Positions 6,736-27,201 of a stretch of DNA of 28,498 nt are shown piece by piece. The stretch's first letter is position 1, and each line of letters opens with the position of its first letter. The position numbers and the translations under genes are program-made. The notes beneath the pieces were generated by a model. The model saw nothing but the letters and a program-made list of their open reading frames with translations, had not been told where the DNA came from and did not search any database. Source of the DNA: a virus; the IMG/VR virus record IMGVR_UViG_3300036828_001641, positions 1 to 28,498 of that record; one strand, 5' to 3'.

Positions 6736-7137
6736 TTATTCCTCCTCCGTATAGGTATAAGCCATCTCCGGCGTTTTCTTGAGCCTGAGTGTCTTCATGT
6801 GTTCGGTTCCCAGTTGCTCCGCCAATCCACACAACAAAAAGATCGGATCTCCGTACTGACGCTTGGCTTCAATCGCGAGATCTCGCACGATCCGGACGAA
6901 ATCCTTTGGATCTAATAGATCCGGATTGAACCCAGGGCTGATGACCACTCGTTCAGAAATCTGGAAATAGGCCCGGATCCTCCCCCGGTAATAAACCAGG
7001 AACAATGGAAATCGGCGTTCCGCCTCATAGCCATGGACGGAGCACGCCAGTTCATCGACATTGTACCGGCGCAACTCCTTTTCGTTATTTACCCGAATCA
7101 GGCTGATCTGCTCATGAACTTTATGTAAGTCTTGCAT
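6736..7137 (-). CDS. Small hypothetical tail-region protein
   Basis: 133 residues from ATG 7137 (MQDLHKVHEQISLIRVNNEK). Longer starts to 7242 lie wholly inside the fibre-like gene and look non-coding. It overlaps the end of that gene by 17 nt and ends three bases before the next start. The protein is soluble and mixed alpha/beta, with a hydrophobic strand-like FPLFLVYYRGRIRAYFQI core and an acidic end (TYTEEE). No signal peptide or membrane segment is visible. I do not recognise the family. By position it may be a tail assembly factor or adaptor, or a small protein acting on the host. Confidence 0.8.
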   Translation of the reverse strand: MQDLHKVHEQISLIRVNNEKELRRYNVDELACSVHGYEAERRFPLFLVYYRGRIRAYFQISERVVISPGFNPDLLDPKDFVRIVRDLAIEAKRQYGDPIFLLCGLAEQLGTEHMKTLRLKKTPEMAYTYTEEE

Positions 7138-13132: not shown

Positions 13133-14111
13133 TTACATCGCATAGCCAGACGCACTGCCAGGATAGGACGGGCACGTCAGGAAGTTGAACGTAGGATTGC
13201 ACCTCTTATAGAGGATCGGAATGACCGCATGCGGTCGCTCCGGACGGTAAGCCCGGATCATCTGATAGATGTGGTAACCGTAGTCGCCGTACGTGTTGCA
13301 GTCGTTGTCCCTGATGACGGTGAACTCCAATTCGCCCTGCGCAAATTGGGCTGGAAACTTCCAGTCGCCTACGCCCAGGTACTGTTCAGGAACGAGCCTC
13401 CGGAAAGAGTTCGCAAATAGCAAAAACCCCACCTCATACTGCGCGTACAACCACGCCGGGTTGGTCCTGGCGCCGAAGCCCGTGGTCACAGGAACCGCAA
13501 TTTCGGGCTCAATAAACTGGGGAATCAATTGCCCGTTCAGGACCGTGAATGCATTGAAACGTAACGGCTGCTGGTCAATGCCAAAAGCGATCCCGCGATA
13601 CGGTCCTTCCCAACTGTAACCGGTCAAAGTTTCGTTACCAATTTCGTATCGACCGGTCGTCAAGCTCTGCAAATCTTGATGGATGTTGAGCTCATCGCGG
13701 AACACGTTCAGCTGGTTCTGGCTGCCAATGAACTTGGCGATCGCGCCCTTCTCTGACTCGAAGGATTCGCAGAGCAGTGTCTCGTGTGCGAACACGAGCA
13801 GGTACTGTAGAAAACTAAACGTTAAGTTGGCGTCGGGAGGCGTGCTGTCGTTGACCGGGACGTCGATCATCTGGACGTCGCCGTTCGTCATTTGTTCAAA
13901 GGTACGTCCCTGATTGATTTTGACTTTAAACCCGGAATGCAAGAACAGCTGGCTGCGCACATCGCAGTTGGCTAGATATAAAAGTTGCTTCTGGAGCGAG
14001 TCCTGAATAGCTACGTAGCTGTTCTGAAAGGCACTGCGCATTTGTTTCACGCAAACTTTTGGGCCTCTTCCCCGAAGGGTCCCAAGCCGGGTAATGTATT
14101 CCGTCGTTCCA
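13133..14111 (-). CDS. Major capsid protein, exon 2
   Basis: This exon encodes residues 88-413 of the capsid protein. Spliced to exon 1 it gives an unbroken 413-residue protein in which the junction reads SQV-GTTEYITRLGTLRGRG. The TTEY..LGTLRGRGP.VCVK element, the following helix (SAFQNSYVAIQDSL) and NCDVRSQLFLHSGFKV are features of capsid proteins of an uncultured podovirus-like family. FKVIG-like segments and a WKFPAQFAQGELEFTVIRD strand follow. It ends YPGSASGYAM. Unspliced, the frame could begin only at a TTG at 14128 within the intron. Position downstream of portal and scaffold supports the capsid call. There is no HK97 protease nearby. Confidence 0.85.
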
Positions 14112-14354
14112 CTTTTTCTTCGCGGCAAGATCGCTACTTCTTACCACCGCCCCTTCGGGCTGCTGCATATTCCTATGCAGATGAGACTATATCTTCACCG
14201 ACATTTTTTGTCGGGCTGGGCGCTTCGGATCGCTTGATCCTACTCTCTTGCGAGATAGTCGTTAGCGTTTCCGCGCTTGCGCGCGGCTTACGTCGGTATT
14301 GGCCGTTCTGGCTGTTCACCGATTTCACCCAGTTAACAGGCCAGAACTAAATCA
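14112..14354 (-). ncRNA. Group I intron (subgroup IA-like) in the capsid gene, 243 nt, no ORF
   Basis: The transcript strand shows the group I core. P7 is GACUAU (14260-14255) pairing with AUAGUC (14190-14185), the latter within the hallmark AAGAUAUAGUC. P3 is CUGGGUG (14332-14326) with CGCCCAG (14222-14216). P4 is UCGGU/ACCGA and P6 is CCGCGC-GCAA-GCGCGG. Two hairpins after P7 (P7.1/P7.2-like) indicate subgroup IA. P8 is CCGAC/GUCGG with an A-rich loop. P1 pairs exon end ACAGGU (14360-14355) with GCCUGU (14341-14336), placing a U-G wobble at the 5' splice site. P10 pairs exon-2 start UGGAAC with GUUCUG just before it, and the intron ends in G (14112). Both ends restore the reading frame. It encodes no endonuclease. 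Confidence 0.92.
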
Positions 14355-14617
14355 ACCTGTGAGATCTGACCGAACGTTCCGCACGAATCGGTATCATTAA
14401 TGTACTCAGGCAAGACGAGGCTTTGCCCGAGAATTGGCCGTTCAACAACCACATTGCGTTGTTGATCCGAAATAGCGTTTTCAAAGACGCCTCCATCGAG
14501 CGCGTCGTTAAAAGGTGCGCGCCGCATGATCGTGGTCGTTATTTGCCCCACGAGTCTGTTGTTATCTCGGTTGGCGAAGTCCACTGCCTGGACTGGGGTT
14601 ACTATGCAGTCTCCCAT
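14355..14617 (-). CDS. Major capsid protein, exon 1
   Basis: This exon encodes the first 87 codons plus two bases of codon 88, from ATG 14617, with GGAGAG six bases upstream. It reads MGDCIVTPVQAVDFANRDN, then an RAPFNDALDGGVFENAISDQ segment and NVVVERPILGQSLVLPEYIND. The last part matches the VxxERPxLxQSLVxP stretch found before a TTEY element in related capsid proteins, which lies in exon 2. Without splicing, translation would run seven codons into the intron (DLVLAC-type end) and stop at TAA 14333. Exon 1 ends in ACAGGU, as required for P1 of a group I intron. Confidence 0.85.
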
Positions 14618-14819: not shown

Positions 14820-14898
14820 TCCAGATTAGTACAAATCAAGCGAAATCAACCGATAGCACTTGCTAAGTCATTCAATACATAACACTCTGTTAGTACTA

Positions 14899-15567
14899 AT
14901 GGCTAGACCACGAGAAGACTTCGCAGAGCGATTCTGGAGCAAAGTAGATAAGAAAGGGCCAAGCGACTGCTGGCTGTGGAAAGGTGCAGTCTTTAACAGA
15001 GAGGGTTACGGACGCGTCTCCTTACCAGGAAGTCCAACGAGGTATACTGCCGCACACCGAGTAGCTTATGCGTTTGTAAAGGGACCTATTCCAGAAGGCT
15101 TAGAGATACATCACAGGTGCCATGTCCGGGATTGTGTCAACCCGGACCATCTTGAACCCTTGTCGCATGCGGAGAATATCAGAAGTCCTGGCGTTTATGT
15201 CGCTCCTCTAAGATCACCACGCCGAAAACCAAATAGTCTTAAGGACGTTTGTTCTCGCTGTGATAAGCCCTATGATTATTTCCACAACCGCAAACGCTAT
15301 TGCCTGACCTGCATCAAGGAGCGCCAACGCAAAGATCCCAACGTGCGCCAACGTAAACGGGAGTGGAAACGCCGCGACGATGCAGTCAAAAAAGCCGAGG
15401 CCATTGCCAATGGGATCTACCGAGCGCCGGGAAGTGCTCCAGGAGAAAAGCGTGGCGGAGGACCGAAGAAGTGGCGTACACCTGAATATATTCGAGAGCA
15501 AAACAGGCTCAAGGCGGTACGCTGGAGAGCGAAGCACCGAGCAACACGGTGCGCGCCGACTTCCTAG
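14899..15567 (+). CDS. Free-standing HNH_3-type homing endonuclease
   Basis: This is the only plus-strand gene: 222 residues from ATG 14899 (MARPREDFAERFWSKVDKKG). An upstream TTG frame to 14860 looks leader-like and is rejected. The HNH_3 core is clear: CWLWKGAV, GYGRVSL, AHRVAYAFVKGPIPEGLEIHH, then CVNPDHLEPLSHAENIR, giving the catalytic HH and N..H residues. A second module has a Cys4 zinc ribbon (CSRC ... CLTC) followed by a long basic tail, probably DNA binding. Such enzymes cut DNA to spread themselves or neighbouring introns. It lies about 280 bp upstream of the intron-bearing capsid gene, in opposite orientation, and its 3' end overlaps the convergent glycosyltransferase gene by 59 bp. 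Confidence 0.92.
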   Translation: MARPREDFAERFWSKVDKKGPSDCWLWKGAVFNREGYGRVSLPGSPTRYTAAHRVAYAFVKGPIPEGLEIHHRCHVRDCVNPDHLEPLSHAENIRSPGVYVAPLRSPRRKPNSLKDVCSRCDKPYDYFHNRKRYCLTCIKERQRKDPNVRQRKREWKRRDDAVKKAEAIANGIYRAPGSAPGEKRGGGPKKWRTPEYIREQNRLKAVRWRAKHRATRCAPTS

Positions 15568-17019: not shown

Positions 17020-18425
17020 TAGAACGCCAAAGCGCTAGCGGTATGTTCAGGAAGGAAAGCCATTTGGCCTACATGGCCGCATACGAGCTGGCTGTCCAAC
17101 CATATCGGGATCGAGCACGCCTTGGCCCGCTGACAGAACGCCTCGTCCTCGCCGGTCATGCCAGTATGATCGAAAAAGCGCCATGGCGACTGTTCATTTT
17201 CTGGTGCTAGGTCTGGGAACCGGCGCTGAATCTCTATGAAGACCTCGCGATGGACAAGGGCGCAGCCAAAGCCGATCCAGTCGACATCGACTAAGCCCCT
17301 TGCCACACCTTTCCGGATATCGTTACAGAGCGTCTTGTCCTCGTGGCTGCGCGGACGAATCTCCGGCTGAATACAGAGCGCTCCATGGTAACGCCGGGTT
17401 GCATAGACTCCGCCCACCATCGCTTTACCGTGACCCAATAGCCGCGCTAGGACGTCGTACCGAGTGGCGTCATCGTTGATCGCCAGCGCTCCGGTAAGCC
17501 AGCGAAACCAGTCGCCATTTGCGATCGGGGCGGCAATATCGGAGTCCAGCCACAAGCTCCAAGTGACGCCCGAAGCCAGGAACCTGTGTGCTAGCATGTT
17601 GCGTGAGCGGTCGATCATGGTGTCAGCTTGGACCTCGAATCCTAACTCGTACTTCTTCGCGAGATAGAGACACGTCCACATGTACGGCAGGGTAGGCCGC
17701 TCGAGAATCGCTGAGCAAACGCTGACATTCATCTTCCCGCGGTTAGGCAGGCTGGTAAAGCTGCCCTCACGCCCATTGCAGGCGAAATGCGGCTCGAGTT
17801 CATCTAAGATCATCTCCATGACACCTGGACGTTTGCCTAGGCACGCAATTACCGCTCCGAGAGGGATCGCAGCTGGATTCTTTTGCCACTGTCTCAGTGT
17901 CTGCTCGCTGCGGTCATAGAACTTTTGGCATTCTTCGCTCTTCTCGCCGCCCAGTTCCCAGATGTGATCGAGAAGTACCTGGGTAAGATCTACTTTCTTG
18001 CGCTTAGGCGGCTTTGTCACTTGGACTTCGACGGGCGGTTCGGCTACGCCCGAGTTGACCGGAAGAGGCACGTCGATCATTGGGTTGCTGTTAGTTGAGG
18101 AAATCTGCGCTTGCTGGCTCTGTTCGACAAACGTACCGATCGTTGTCCGCCCGGTGCCATGCGGAGGCACGATTTGGATCCCTGGCTGATTCGCCTGGTG
18201 CACCTGGGGCGGCACAACGGCTATCGCGGGCTGGCCGCGACCGACCACCTGCTGAATAATGGTTCCTTCTGGAATGGGGACGCCCTGAGGAATCTGCCCC
18301 TGACCAGTTTTAGGAGGCGCGATATTCATTCCCGGACTATACAGCGGAGGCGGTTCGCCCTGTGGAGCAGCAACAGCCTTTTTACCATACCGGGCCTCAA
18401 TAGCGCTAGCGTCGGCGGTGATCAT
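17019..18425 (-). CDS. Glycosyltransferase-like protein with disordered and HTH-like N-terminus (first of the cassette)
   Basis: 468 residues from ATG 18425, overlapping the HNH gene stop as ATGA, with AAGGA inside the HNH gene as binding site. Residues about 20-140 are Pro/Gln/Gly-rich and probably disordered. Residues about 146-215 form a helical domain (VLLDHIWELGGEK, EQTLRQWQKNPAAIPLGAVI) that resembles a helix-turn-helix fold. From about 230 it is a GT-A domain: DRSRNMLAHRFLASGVTWSL, then WLDSDIAAP with DXD at 294-296, and GMTGEDEAFCQRAKACSIP followed by a C-terminal LVCGHVG. The latter pattern is common in phage-encoded glycosyltransferases. The extra N-terminal domain is unusual and could tether the enzyme. 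Sugar and target are unknown. Confidence 0.85.
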   Translation of the reverse strand: MITADASAIEARYGKKAVAAPQGEPPPLYSPGMNIAPPKTGQGQIPQGVPIPEGTIIQQVVGRGQPAIAVVPPQVHQANQPGIQIVPPHGTGRTTIGTFVEQSQQAQISSTNSNPMIDVPLPVNSGVAEPPVEVQVTKPPKRKKVDLTQVLLDHIWELGGEKSEECQKFYDRSEQTLRQWQKNPAAIPLGAVIACLGKRPGVMEMILDELEPHFACNGREGSFTSLPNRGKMNVSVCSAILERPTLPYMWTCLYLAKKYELGFEVQADTMIDRSRNMLAHRFLASGVTWSLWLDSDIAAPIANGDWFRWLTGALAINDDATRYDVLARLLGHGKAMVGGVYATRRYHGALCIQPEIRPRSHEDKTLCNDIRKGVARGLVDVDWIGFGCALVHREVFIEIQRRFPDLAPENEQSPWRFFDHTGMTGEDEAFCQRAKACSIPIWLDSQLVCGHVGQMAFLPEHTASALAF

Positions 18426-18865
18426 TGAACTTGTCCTTTTTGTCTTCGATATCGCTGGCGATCTGCTTCCTTCCAGCAGATTCTGCAGTGCCGTCTACCC
18501 CTCTTGATCAAGGTATTGGCTTCGTCGTAAGGGTGACCTTGCGGACAATGGGTCTTGTTTCCATTGCCGTTCCTACCGCCTGGAGTTAGCAAGCAATGCT
18601 CGGAACGTGTCAAAACTTCTAAGTGATTCGGGTTACAGCAGTGCTTATTGAGACATTTGTGATGAAGCTCCTTTCCTTTCGGAACAGGGCCAATGAGCAG
18701 TTCATAAACAATACGATGAACATACTTCATGGTATTCGGCGGCTCAGTATAGATGCGACCGTATCCCTTTTCAGTCACGTAGCCATTCCAGATCCAGCAA
18801 TCATCAACAAGAATCTTGGAACGAATTTGTGGAGATAGATCTGCGACGCTATGTATTTCCATCAT
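18422..18865 (-). CDS. Second HNH_3-type homing endonuclease
   Basis: 147 residues from ATG 18865; the longer frame to 18901 would overlap the scaffold gene by 53 nt and has no better binding site. The HNH_3 motifs are CWIWNGYVTEKGYGRIY, YVHRIVYELLIGPVPKG, ELHHKC, and CCNPNHLEVLTRSEH, with catalytic HH and N..H. A Cys-rich C-terminus (CPQGHPYDEANTL ... HCRICWKEADRQR) forms a zinc-ribbon-like binding module. It is about the same architecture as the plus-strand HNH but shorter and divergent. It starts within the last bases of the scaffold-like gene and runs into the first glycosyltransferase as ATGA, so it is inserted very precisely. Confidence 0.9.
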   Translation of the reverse strand: MMEIHSVADLSPQIRSKILVDDCWIWNGYVTEKGYGRIYTEPPNTMKYVHRIVYELLIGPVPKGKELHHKCLNKHCCNPNHLEVLTRSEHCLLTPGGRNGNGNKTHCPQGHPYDEANTLIKRGRRHCRICWKEADRQRYRRQKGQVQ

Positions 18866-19616
18866 TCTCGGCCCAGTATTTATCAAAAGACTGCCGTACA
18901 TCCAAATTGCGTATGCTTAGTCCGTCATTTTTCTTAGAGTTGCTCGCAGGCGGGGTCCCGGTGGTCTGGGAAAGTCTCCGCCGCGCACCTGCTATTTTAT
19001 CCAGTTCACTCTTATATTTATCTCTCTCAAGCTTCGCATTTTTGAGTTCCGACTTTAATTCCTTCAACCCTTCGTCCAGGATTTGAGCACGCGTAGCCTC
19101 GATACTGGCTCGCACCCAGCCGCGCGGCCCGTTCGCGCTGATGTCCTTGATGAACCCTTGAAACTGGTTATTAAGGCGCGCAAAGCGTTCGTTATGCGCT
19201 TCGATCGCTTTGCGTTCCTCAGAAGTCTTTGCCTCATCAATGTTACGGGGCAGAATCTCCGCGATCCGTTGTTCCTGCACGCCAATTTCGGTCATGATTT
19301 CCTCTTGCACCCTTTTAGAGGTGTTCGTCGCTCTCTCAGCGACAAAATTATTGAACGCGCTTTGGTTGTTTGTGCGGCGCATTAACTCGCTATCGCGCGC
19401 CTTCTGTGTCTGGCGCAGTTGACTCACTGAATTAAGGAGCTGGGCCCGGTCCAGTTCGTTAGGCACTTTGGCTACGACGTCATTCACCCACCAGTCGCGC
19501 CCGAGCTGATCTGGCCGGTAATTGGATTTGATGTGGTCGGCCCATTGCCGGGCCGCCTCTCTATCTGGAAGGACTTCCACCGCTTCTTCCAATAAGCTCT
19601 CGAAACGTTGTTGCAC
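18849..19616 (-). CDS. C-terminal part of the scaffold-like protein after the in-frame stop
   Basis: Readable from GTG 19616 for 255 residues, but the frame is open upstream to the TAA at 19643-19641, giving FVEHFHLPVQQRFESLLEEA. The sequence is strongly helical and charged (LLEEAVEVLPDREAARQWADH, LPRNIDEAKTSEERKAIEAHN, LKELKSELKNAKLERDKYKSE), with coiled-coil potential and a disordered tail. It is in the same frame as the preceding 170-codon gene. The meeting point resembles one continuous protein, ASDP-stop-FVEHF. No ribosome binding site precedes GTG 19616. I therefore treat it as the second half of a gene carrying a nonsense codon or requiring read-through. It ends 17 nt inside the HNH gene. 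Confidence 0.75.
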   Translation of the reverse strand: MQQRFESLLEEAVEVLPDREAARQWADHIKSNYRPDQLGRDWWVNDVVAKVPNELDRAQLLNSVSQLRQTQKARDSELMRRTNNQSAFNNFVAERATNTSKRVQEEIMTEIGVQEQRIAEILPRNIDEAKTSEERKAIEAHNERFARLNNQFQGFIKDISANGPRGWVRASIEATRAQILDEGLKELKSELKNAKLERDKYKSELDKIAGARRRLSQTTGTPPASNSKKNDGLSIRNLDVRQSFDKYWAENDGNT

Positions 19617-23907: not shown

Positions 23908-24951
23908 TCAGAACTCTGAGTCCCAGTCGATATAAAGTCTATGCAGGCGTTCTTGAAGACTGTTCGACTTGCGCGATCGCTTCGAAGAACGGGTAGGCTT
24001 GCTGGGGGACAACAGCGTTTCCCAATGCTTTAAGTTGGTGTGATCGACCTCGTATCCCATCAGTTCGCAGACAAATCGGGGGTTCAGTGAGCCGGAAAAT
24101 GTGTCTTTGAGATTCGAGCAACCCCCGATCTTCCGTGCTCTCTCTAGCGCCTCCTGGCTGCGAGGCTGCATGTGATCCATGCAATTCGGCGGCGGCAACA
24201 GACTCGCCTTCACTTCGTATTGAAGGTCGCCGTGTCCCTTCCCCTGGCTGTCGTAACCCTCCTTGCGCGGCGTCGGCCAGAGTTTCGCCATTGTCGTCAG
24301 AGTTGCTCCCCGTCCCTGCCCGGTCCACGATCCCATTCCCCGCTCGGCTGCTTTCTTCACCTTCTCTCTGTTCTCCGGTCCCTGATCGTTTTCGTTCGCT
24401 CTCGCCGTCGGCCAGAGCTTCGCCGCCGTTTGCAGGTTGATCCCTCCTTCCCTGCCCTGCGTGCCCGCTCCCGTTGAGCAGTTCGCATGCGCGGTCGGCC
24501 AGAGCTTCGGATTCATCACCTGATCGGCCAAACGCACTTGCTGGTCCGGTCTCGCCGTTCCATTCAAGAGGCATTTGCTGGGCGTCGCTACGTTCCCCTT
24601 CGATCCTGCATCCGGCGTGCGCCACAATGAAGACTCGCTGCCTCCTGTGCTTTGCCCCAACGGCGTTAGCTGGAACCTCAAAGACTGCGAATTGATAGCC
24701 GAGAGCTTCCAGATCCACACAAATTCCTCCGAATTCGTCCATAGAGGTGAGTCCAGGCACGTTTTCACCAATAACCCAAGCGGGCCTGACAAGTTCGATA
24801 ACATTGCGCATTGCCGGCCAGAGGTTTCGGTCATCTTTCTGGCCTCGCCGCTTCCCGGCTGTGCTGAAGGGTTGACAGGGGAATCCTCCACTGAGAACGG
24901 TAATCCCTCCTGCAAGAGGTCTGAAAGATTCTGTGTTTCTGACATCTCCAT
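23908..24951 (-). CDS. Alternate-frame ORF within the methyltransferase gene (dual-coding candidate)
   Basis: 347 codons from ATG 24951 to a stop at 23908, in a different frame from the methyltransferase and almost fully inside it. The product has KLWPTAHAN, KLWPTARAN and KLWPTPRKE repeats, a related SLWRTPDAG element, SGSLNPRFVCELMGYEV near the C-terminus, and a basic end. LNPRFVEWLMG- and WPTP-type elements are found in proteins encoded with or fused to phage cytosine methyltransferases, so the frame looks like real protein rather than chance. Whether it is expressed separately, with its own start, or was fused to an ancestral methyltransferase is unclear. There is no convincing ribosome binding site at 24951. 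Confidence 0.5.
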   Translation of the reverse strand: MEMSETQNLSDLLQEGLPFSVEDSPVNPSAQPGSGEARKMTETSGRQCAMLSNLSGPLGLLVKTCLDSPLWTNSEEFVWIWKLSAINSQSLRFQLTPLGQSTGGSESSLWRTPDAGSKGNVATPSKCLLNGTARPDQQVRLADQVMNPKLWPTAHANCSTGAGTQGREGGINLQTAAKLWPTARANENDQGPENREKVKKAAERGMGSWTGQGRGATLTTMAKLWPTPRKEGYDSQGKGHGDLQYEVKASLLPPPNCMDHMQPRSQEALERARKIGGCSNLKDTFSGSLNPRFVCELMGYEVDHTNLKHWETLLSPSKPTRSSKRSRKSNSLQERLHRLYIDWDSEF

Positions 24952-25093
24952 AGTTTTGTATTTCAGGCCATTTTTCGGCTAACAATTGGCAGCAGTAAGG
25001 ATCGACTTCGCTGAATCCTATCGTCTGGAATCCGGCCCATTCGGCTGCCAGATGAAAACCTCCGATGCCCGTGCATAGGTCGAGGTGTGTCAT
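23939..25093 (-). CDS. C5-cytosine DNA methyltransferase
   Basis: 384 residues from ATG 25093, overlapping the 27-codon ORF as ATGA; the longer frame to 25228 runs back into terL. It transfers a methyl group from S-adenosylmethionine to C5 of cytosine in a specific DNA site. Motif I is DLCTGIGGFHLAAEWAGF (5-22), motif IV GGFPCQPFS with catalytic Cys73, motif VI GENVPGL, motif VIII KHRRQRVFIVA, and motif X QLKALGNAVVPQQAYPFF. The region between VIII and X, where the target-recognition domain sits, is Gly/Glu/Arg-rich and carries EALAD repeats that correspond in DNA to the alternate ORF. No restriction enzyme lies beside it, suggesting an orphan protective or regulatory enzyme. Confidence 0.93.
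   Translation of the reverse strand: MTHLDLCTGIGGFHLAAEWAGFQTIGFSEVDPYCCQLLAEKWPEIQNYGDVRNTESFRPLAGGITVLSGGFPCQPFSTAGKRRGQKDDRNLWPAMRNVIELVRPAWVIGENVPGLTSMDEFGGICVDLEALGYQFAVFEVPANAVGAKHRRQRVFIVAHAGCRIEGERSDAQQMPLEWNGETGPASAFGRSGDESEALADRACELLNGSGHAGQGRRDQPANGGEALADGESERKRSGTGEQREGEESSRAGNGIVDRAGTGSNSDDNGETLADAAQGGLRQPGEGTRRPSIRSEGESVAAAELHGSHAASQPGGARESTEDRGLLESQRHIFRLTEPPICLRTDGIRGRSHQLKALGNAVVPQQAYPFFEAIAQVEQSSRTPA
24272..24504 (-). repeat. Three dispersed copies of an 11-bp repeat in the methyltransferase gene
   Basis: GTCGGCCAGAG occurs on the plus strand at 24272-24282, 24407-24417 and 24494-24504, each followed by (C/T)TTCG. In the methyltransferase frame it encodes E(A/T)LAD, and in the alternate frame KLWPT. 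Conservation of both peptides at spaced sites shows the repeat is coupled to coding, not an independent element. Confidence 0.8.
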
Positions 25094-25173
25094 TCGAGTG
25101 TGGCGAATTGAAGAGCTTCTTCCTGGGTTCGAAAGTTCTTCCTGACAAGATGGCCGTTGATAACGCGTTTCAT
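25090..25173 (-). CDS. 27-residue ORF linking terL and the methyltransferase gene
   Basis: ATG 25173 overlaps the terL stop as ATGA. Its stop at 25090 overlaps the methyltransferase ATG the same way. The product is MKRVINGHLVRKNFRTQEEA followed by LQFATLE, amphipathic with a plausible helix. Double ATGA coupling is a typical sign of a translated small gene, perhaps simply coupling translation of its neighbour. No homology is claimed. Confidence 0.55.
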   Translation of the reverse strand: MKRVINGHLVRKNFRTQEEALQFATLE

Positions 25174-26981
25174 ATGTCTTCTGACCAATCGATATAGGCG
25201 GTCTTTTCCCGGTGACCGATGTACTCACCGGGCCTAAAGCGTTGCCGGTTCGAGCCGAGCATACTCGCCTTCTCAGGCCCGTTTATGGCGCAACCATGGA
25301 TCATCATAACAAAGGCGTCAGCTATATCGGGGCTCCATCCCAACCTCTTCTTAAACTCTTTTTTAGGCTCCAGGCGTATTCGCGGCTTTGCACTCGGGCC
25401 TTTGGTGGACGGCTGATACCTGCGGCCACTCAACTCCTTGAACAGTTGTGAGCTTAACATGTTAGGATGAAACGCCACATGACCGAACTCGAGGAATTTG
25501 CGGGCCCGGGCGTACATCTCCGTACTGATCCCGTCGTAGATTTCGTTCGCGTAATCGTGATCGTCAGCCAACAGTTTGCGGAACCCCGCATCAGAGCCCC
25601 ACATCACCCCGCGCACCGATCCTGACCATTGCTCACACAGAGCATCGTGCGTCCCAGTACCGACACCCGTACGATCACAGGTTACCCAATCAGCATGAAC
25701 CTTTAGTCCGATCATGCGCTCTTGCAGGCTGGTAGCTAATGCGATGGTTTTCTCCTTGGGCACCTCATAGTACTGATCAGCCTGGACACAGTAGCGCGGC
25801 TTTTGCCATAATAGCGGCTTGCCGTTCGAGGGTTGGAACCCGATAGCCTTACCATACCTGCCGCAGAACAATATGATCCGGTCACCGCCCTCGAACGCCA
25901 GATCTATCCCGGCGCAACCTACCGTTCTGCCGTCAAAGATGAAGAGACCGATCACGGTCTCCAATAACGAGTAAGGAATCAGCGTGTTCGCTAAAGCGTC
26001 CAGAGGATACATACCCCTGCCAAAAGTGAGGTATTTTGGAGACTGACCCCCCAATTCCAACGCGAACTTTTGATAACCTTCCCACGTGAGGAAACCGGGG
26101 AAGATCAACTCACGTTTCTGGACATTCTCGCAATCGAACCCGTCCAGGCGCAGAACCTGCCAGCGTTCCGAGCTGACCCATTCCTTGTCGGTATCCATAT
26201 TCAGTGTCGTCCAGCCGTTAGCGGGCTCGGCCAACTGCGCTAACTTCGAGCTTACGTCGCGCGGGTTGGTGCAACACGCCACTTTAACGGCTTCCGGGCC
26301 CCAAGCGCTGGCTAGTAGGTTTGCAACACCTTCCCAGACGCCCGAAGGGATCTCCTCGGCTTCATCGAGCAGCGCGCGGACGCGCGACATTGCACCAAAG
26401 ACCGGATGCGGATGATGGCGAGGAACCGGGTGGAACCCTTGTAAAACCCCGCGGCCATCTTCGCCTTGCGGAATCGCCACCAATGTAATCGCCGAGTGCC
26501 GGTCTTTCGGGTTGAGGCCAACAAACCCGTCCATCGATAGCCCGGGTAACGGTACAATCGAGGCTTTGTAGAGTCGCTGCAGAGTGGAAAACGATTGGCT
26601 CTTCGCATGGCCGCCCGTCGTCGAGATGACCTTGATTTCCGTATATTCACAATCGCGGATCCAATCAAGCAAGCAATAACAGATCAAGGTGTATGTCTTG
26701 CCCAGGGCAGCCCCACCAAGGACAATCAGGTTCTGACTTGCTCGCACCGTCTTTAAGAGTTGCGTGACTGCTGACGGACCAGAATTGAATAAGGCCGGTC
26801 CCCATAACAGCGTGCCAGCAAGGGCGTATCTCTCAGTTTCCAGCAGGCGTTTTACCAGCGCCCAGATCCAACTGCGCGCCTGATCCGGCTCCTGGACACT
26901 GTTGTCGATCTTCCAGACTGCCGGGACGATCTCCTCATCGGTCCCAGCTCCGCACTCACGCCTGAATTGCAGCAGGTCCAT
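25170..26981 (-). CDS. terL: Terminase large subunit (DNA packaging ATPase/nuclease)
   Basis: 603 residues from ATG 26981 (MDLLQFRRECGAGTDEE), overlapping the upstream stop; the extension to 27056 lies inside that gene. TerL powers DNA translocation into the prohead through the portal and cuts the concatemer. The ATPase Walker A is GGAALGKT (89-96) and Walker B LLDEAEE (204-210), with a CTNP coupling element near 237-240. The nuclease domain shows GIDLAFEGGD with Asp360, VTCDRTGVGTG with Asp436, and SPDIADAFVMM near 550-560, the expected RNase H-like acidic residues. Length is normal for the family. A small terminase subunit was not identified with confidence among the two small genes upstream. 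Confidence 0.95.
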   Translation of the reverse strand: MDLLQFRRECGAGTDEEIVPAVWKIDNSVQEPDQARSWIWALVKRLLETERYALAGTLLWGPALFNSGPSAVTQLLKTVRASQNLIVLGGAALGKTYTLICYCLLDWIRDCEYTEIKVISTTGGHAKSQSFSTLQRLYKASIVPLPGLSMDGFVGLNPKDRHSAITLVAIPQGEDGRGVLQGFHPVPRHHPHPVFGAMSRVRALLDEAEEIPSGVWEGVANLLASAWGPEAVKVACCTNPRDVSSKLAQLAEPANGWTTLNMDTDKEWVSSERWQVLRLDGFDCENVQKRELIFPGFLTWEGYQKFALELGGQSPKYLTFGRGMYPLDALANTLIPYSLLETVIGLFIFDGRTVGCAGIDLAFEGGDRIILFCGRYGKAIGFQPSNGKPLLWQKPRYCVQADQYYEVPKEKTIALATSLQERMIGLKVHADWVTCDRTGVGTGTHDALCEQWSGSVRGVMWGSDAGFRKLLADDHDYANEIYDGISTEMYARARKFLEFGHVAFHPNMLSSQLFKELSGRRYQPSTKGPSAKPRIRLEPKKEFKKRLGWSPDIADAFVMMIHGCAINGPEKASMLGSNRQRFRPGEYIGHREKTAYIDWSEDI

Positions 26982-27201
26982 CTGAGTCCGGCAACGGCTG
27001 GTTGCCGATAAGATCGATAAGTTTATCGAAGGCAGCGATCGTTTCAATGACCTCAAGGGAGATACCGTATCCCCTCAGTTGCTCGTATTGTTCCTGAGTG
27101 ATGTAATAGACCTTCATGCAATCATACACGCGCCCCACTATTCCAACCCGCTGCAATCGCTCAATCGTACCACTGGCTGCTCCATTCATCTCGGATAGCA
27201 C
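26956..27201 (-). CDS. Small winged-HTH-like protein upstream of terL
   Basis: 81 residues from GTG 27201 (or 77 from ATG 27189), overlapping both neighbours. The segment SGTIERLQRVGIVGRVYDCM then KVYYITQEQYEQLRGYGI looks like a helix-turn-helix followed by a short beta hairpin, as in excisionase/MerR-like DNA-binding proteins. A final helix (FDKLIDLIGN) and a Pro-rich tail follow. Given its place before terL it could be a small terminase or packaging recognition protein. It is short for that role and lacks a clear oligomerisation domain. Confidence 0.7.
   Translation of the reverse strand: MLSEMNGAASGTIERLQRVGIVGRVYDCMKVYYITQEQYEQLRGYGISLEVIETIAAFDKLIDLIGNQPLPDSDGPAAIQA

Follow-up and report, generated by a model that had tools for sequence, protein, structure and literature searches.

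What interrupts the capsid gene at the centre of this phage contig, and how could such a gene still give rise to one coat protein? The window, by which we mean the whole 28,498-nt stretch of IMG/VR record IMGVR_UViG_3300036828_001641, yields two separate fragments of 94 aa and 331 aa (TTG start) in its open reading frame list when splicing is left aside, just as a preliminary description of this DNA had foreseen for conventional gene callers. That description attributed the split to a compact ORF-less group I intron at 14112-14354. These ends proved right to the base, and the strand, which had been left unstated, is the minus strand: positions 14354-14112 are a 243-nt group I intron interrupting a 413-codon gene that runs from 14617 to 13133. 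Exon 1 (14355-14617, minus strand) is 263 nt long and comprises codons 1-87 together with two bases of codon 88, and exon 2 (13133-14111, minus strand) comprises 979 nt including the stop codon. Both exons were defined by alignment to intron-less relatives.

Relatives of the capsid protein were found at 20 IMG/VR loci, five of which share one identical capsid sequence. In the aligned DNA, none of the 20 loci contains an insertion at the site of the window intron. Excision of 14354-14112 restores a frame of 413 codons with the junction QV-GTTEY, and the resulting protein, which is up to 96% identical to its intron-less relatives, aligns with them straight across the junction without a gap, so that the predicted 413-residue product and its junction both held when the proposed alignment was carried out. 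Junction residues G89 and T91-E92-Y93 are invariant among the aligned relatives. In addition, purifying selection acts on both exons (pN 0.04-0.09, pS 0.74-0.88), which contain no stops or frameshifts; in comparison with the intron-less relative L001, pN and pS are 0.04 and 0.74 for exon 1, and 0.065 and 0.79 for exon 2. That pN lies far below pS in both exons indicates a need for the full-length product and, by implication, removal of the intron.

The order at the boundaries is 5′ exon ...CTCACAGGT / intron TGATTTAG...GAAGAAAAAG / 3′ exon TGGAACGACGG.... Alignment to the empty sites leaves the position of the intron end ambiguous by one base, because a T is present at both ends. In group I introns a U precedes the intron and a G closes it. 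The terminal G of the final bases AAAAAG, together with the U.G pair that P1 forms between ACAGGU and GCCUGU, resolves the ambiguity in favor of the splice sites proposed earlier. A covariance search with the Rfam group I model RF00028, which had been suggested as a check, gave a match above the cut-off at 14457-14163 (minus strand; 51.6 bits, gathering score 50, E 1.4e-10). This match begins too early, its 5′ end being over-extended into the exon where the model stretches the first helix. The intron ends were accordingly fixed by empty-site alignment against the 20 relatives and not by the RF00028 match. No endonuclease ORF is present within the 243 nt.

All pairings named in the preliminary description (P1, P3, P4, P6, P7, P8 and P10) are present, and P1, P3, P4, P5, P6, P7, P7.1, P7.2, P8, P9, P9.1, P9.2 and P10 can all be drawn without recourse to non-standard pairs. 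Pattern scans located relatives of the intron on further phage contigs, and seven introns were aligned. Within this alignment 89.7% of the cells are paired and two-sided changes occur in 33 of 70 pairs; when the partners were slid by one to three columns as a control, 31-38% of the cells were paired and 4-8 pairs had two-sided changes. Drawing the structure on the window sequence gives it some advantage over the slid versions in pairing, but none in two-sided changes. Chance as the source of the structure is excluded by this covariation, and the better folding of the intron relative to shuffled versions (z-score -5.4) supports this.

The helices of the core, all on the minus strand, are distributed as follows. 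The 5′ strand of P3 (CUGGGUG, 14326-14332) pairs with CGCCCAG at 14222-14216, with 98% of cells paired and two-sided changes. P4 (UCGGU/ACCGA) and P5 occupy 14293-14322 and are paired in 100% and 95% of cells, respectively; they are followed at 14266-14292 by P6 (100% paired, two-sided changes in three of three pairs) and P6a (72%), which carry a GCAA tetraloop. The 5′ strand of P7 (GACUA, 14256-14260) pairs with UAGUC at 14189-14185, which lies within the S element claimed previously, AAGAUAUAGUC, located at 14195-14185; P7 is fully paired and has two-sided changes in two pairs. The P8 hairpin (14198-14214) is paired in 88.6% of cells with two-sided changes in three pairs, and the P9, P9.1 and P9.2 hairpins (14122-14180) in 100%, 78.6% and 80%, respectively. 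Thus, the conserved P3-P8 core with the guanosine site in P7 is present and backed by covariation. Two further hairpins, P7.1 and P7.2 (14227-14255), are 100% paired in the seven introns. An insertion of this kind between the 5′ strand of P7 and the 3′ strand of P3 is typical of subgroup IA, and judged by sequence the two hairpins point to this subgroup for the window intron.

P1 and P10 are site-specific, and their alignment across introns is not expected. In the window, the internal guide sequence GCCUGU (intron positions 14-19, 14336-14341) pairs, including the U.G pair, with the exon strand ACAGGU (14355-14360), whose U lies at the 5′ splice site; among the 284 U positions of this capsid message, this is the sole perfect six-base match ending in U. 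P10 is formed by the intron strand GUUCUG (14342-14347) and UGGAAC of the 3′ exon (14111-14106), giving six standard pairs, two of them wobbles. Splicing would then proceed along the lines common to the family: with ACAGGU at the end of the exon held by the guide, guanosine would bind at P7 as cofactor and attack after the U; the exon end freed in this way would then attack behind the intron's terminal G, P10 assisting in aligning the 3′ exon. The joined message would encode the 413-residue coat protein.

These data bear on two other views of the interruption. An intron that has degenerated, lost its splicing and left the capsid gene broken would agree with an Rfam score near the cut-off and with splicing being deduced from sequence, but it fits poorly with core helices that are all intact and made of standard pairs, with a P1 that matches its own exon uniquely, and with exons in which pN is far under pS and stops and frameshifts are absent; we regard it as very improbable. 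A translational bypass element would likewise restore one protein across the interruption. It would predict neither the covariation of a complete group I core nor the exact splice-site features, and its probability is close to negligible.

The closest relative of the window intron was found in L018, a 22-kb contig, where a 238-nt copy (6784-7021) lies in the same capsid gene but after codon 261 instead of in codon 88. Within this phage group, the window and this one relative are the only carriers. The RF00028 margin is small for both introns, since that of the window is just above the cut-off and that of L018, at 49.9 bits, is 0.1 bit under it. Overall identity between the two introns is 92%, rising to 94.7% in the core, and they are sisters with 100% bootstrap among the seven introns, whereas the exons are 77% identical with saturated synonymous sites (pS 0.80). 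Although the likeness of the introns may partly reflect constraint on the ribozyme, identity to the window intron is 65-85% for other family members, which makes a recent common origin of the two the better reading. The guide of the L018 intron, GCCUCU, matches AGAGGU, while that of the window, GCCUGU, matches ACAGGU; in other words, the guide differs where the exon differs (C-G versus G-C), which is covariation of guide and target. As in the window, the sole perfect six-base match ending in U in the L018 capsid message is at the intron's own splice site (261 U positions). By inspection, the window has a strong P10 and L018 a weak one. Comparison of window and L018 exons in 60-base bins for co-conversion tracts showed no clearly raised exon identity beside either intron.

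An assembly chimera or sequencing artefact might be suspected because the window is one metagenome contig. It is extremely unlikely in view of the clean in-frame boundaries, which follow group I rules, and of the independent contig whose sister intron occupies a different site and has a guide to match. The degenerate intron, the artefact and the bypass element were all rejected. We are highly confident that 14354-14112 is a compact subgroup-IA group I ribozyme, presumably self-splicing, by which an uncultured tailed phage has its major capsid gene interrupted.

More distant introns share the P7.1/P7.2 fold. L025 (5654-5904) and L060 (1256-1504) contain related introns of 83% core identity near the start of the tail tube gene (phrog_185), inserted in codons 18 and 10, respectively, and intron-less tail tube relatives confirm the joined reading for both. 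L061 and L062 contain a related intron in the major head gene (phrog_334). The introns of L025, L060, L061/L062, L026 and L023, whose cores are 65-85% identical to the window intron, differ from those of the window and L018 by extra sequence with a potential P2 hairpin between P1 and P3 (by inspection). Three group I introns above the cut-off were observed in one phage locus, L029, and two in L023.

Judged from these comparisons, introns of this lineage have reached more than one site, and the pattern is seen in two gene families, at codons 88 and 261 of the capsid gene and at codons 18 and 10 of the tail tube gene. The two-site pattern suggests ectopic movement, perhaps by reverse splicing. 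For reverse splicing 4-6 bases of guide match suffice, and it has been invoked to account for related introns at separate positions in rDNA, albeit without direct proof (PMC3984707). It is the route that we favor, while rating it at somewhat under an even chance. In this scheme, which we put forward tentatively, an endonuclease-free intron would hop among sites in the same late structural genes via RNA-level reverse splicing, its guide being re-matched at each move. Endonuclease cuts at ectopic sites would also fit, and two phages may also have taken up the intron independently from a common donor.

A different route is collaborative homing, in which a neighboring HNH enzyme would cut intron-less capsid genes and repair would copy in the intron-bearing version; precedents have been reviewed (PMC3984707, PMC2988022). 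The window contains two free-standing HNH_3 genes, at 14890-15567 (plus strand) and 18422-18901 (minus strand), the first lying on the strand opposite to its neighbors. This first gene (PF13392, E 2.4e-14), at most a candidate partner of the intron, is directly upstream of the capsid gene, L025 has an endonuclease VII-like gene beside its related intron, and the L061 record includes an HNH_3 gene, all of which would suit such a mechanism. Against this, the 22 kb of L018 contain the intron without any HNH_3 match (these contigs are incomplete), G007 lacks the intron although seven HNH_3 genes are present, and in L010 and L014, which likewise lack the intron, an HNH gene lies immediately upstream of the capsid gene. 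An association between HNH genes and the intron was sought among related loci and not found, HNH genes being present in many intron-less relatives. Moreover, homing keeps the site, and therefore homing alone does not account for two different sites. We consider collaborative homing unlikely, and continue to favor reverse splicing.

The label of major capsid protein given to the split gene in the preliminary description could not be drawn from sequence families. Neither the spliced protein nor its relatives matched PHROGs or Pfam, no isolate-phage match was obtained for the window capsid or for a distant family member, and a PDB sequence-profile search with the capsid returned nothing meaningful. 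A genome collection contained no relative of the capsid and, by exact pattern, no copy of the intron. A deeper IMG/VR search increased the family to more than 300 members. A first structure model, based on 14 close sequences, was discarded (pLDDT 33) and replaced by one based on 65 sequences, built for the intron-less relative L001 (pLDDT 71.8, pTM 0.73). Foldseek searches with this model gave E values down to 3.7e-8 with top matches that are all capsids, and VIA aligned it to the N4 capsid (9e99_A) with a Z of 15.8 and an rmsd of 3.8 over 267 residues. The HK97 fold is also found in encapsulins. A weak terminase match is present in the window at 25170-27056, and on a phage contig with such a match major capsid protein is the natural reading of an HK97 fold. 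The predicted structure, of middling confidence and built from an intron-less relative, thus supports the view that the split gene encodes an HK97-fold major capsid protein. Adjoining the weakly matched terminase gene is a DNA methyltransferase gene (23939-25228, minus strand; phrog_363, E 1.8e-74).

Group I introns in phage capsid genes have already been published (LittleE, Tuc2009). Mycobacteriophage LittleE has an intron in its major capsid gene, as does the window, and mycobacteriophages BAKA and Optimus have a compact ORF-less intron in a tail gene; that of BAKA is 265 bp long, and a 156-bp segment of it is 98% identical to the LittleE intron (PMC3706429). Splicing of the LittleE capsid and BAKA tail introns was shown by RT-PCR (PMC3706429, Pope et al. 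2013). In LittleE and BAKA a U precedes and a G ends the intron, as in the window. The LittleE capsid intron is ∼820 bp long and contains an endonuclease ORF, whereas that of the window has 243 nt, no such ORF and a sister elsewhere in the same gene. PMC3706429 also names an earlier case, in a capsid subunit gene of lactococcal phage Tuc2009, which belongs to a different phage group; this intron is likened here by description. In the Jug gut phages, short group I introns averaging ∼206 nt are common in essential genes, and metatranscriptomes supported splicing for 37 of 76 (PMC12363816). The window shares with them a compact intron in an essential gene, but Jug phages are huge gut phages with ∼18 introns each, and one intron was found in the 28-kb fragment analyzed here.

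What appears to be new here is that the closest relative of an intron sits at a different site of the same gene, with its guide changed to match. For a widespread group of uncultured phages, the results provide a precise annotation of the capsid gene and a warning that gene callers split such genes. Circumstantial evidence of this kind for reverse splicing has been credited chiefly to ribosomal DNA introns (PMC3984707), and sister introns at two sites of a single protein-coding phage gene, each with a matched guide, offer a concrete pair on which reverse splicing may be tested.
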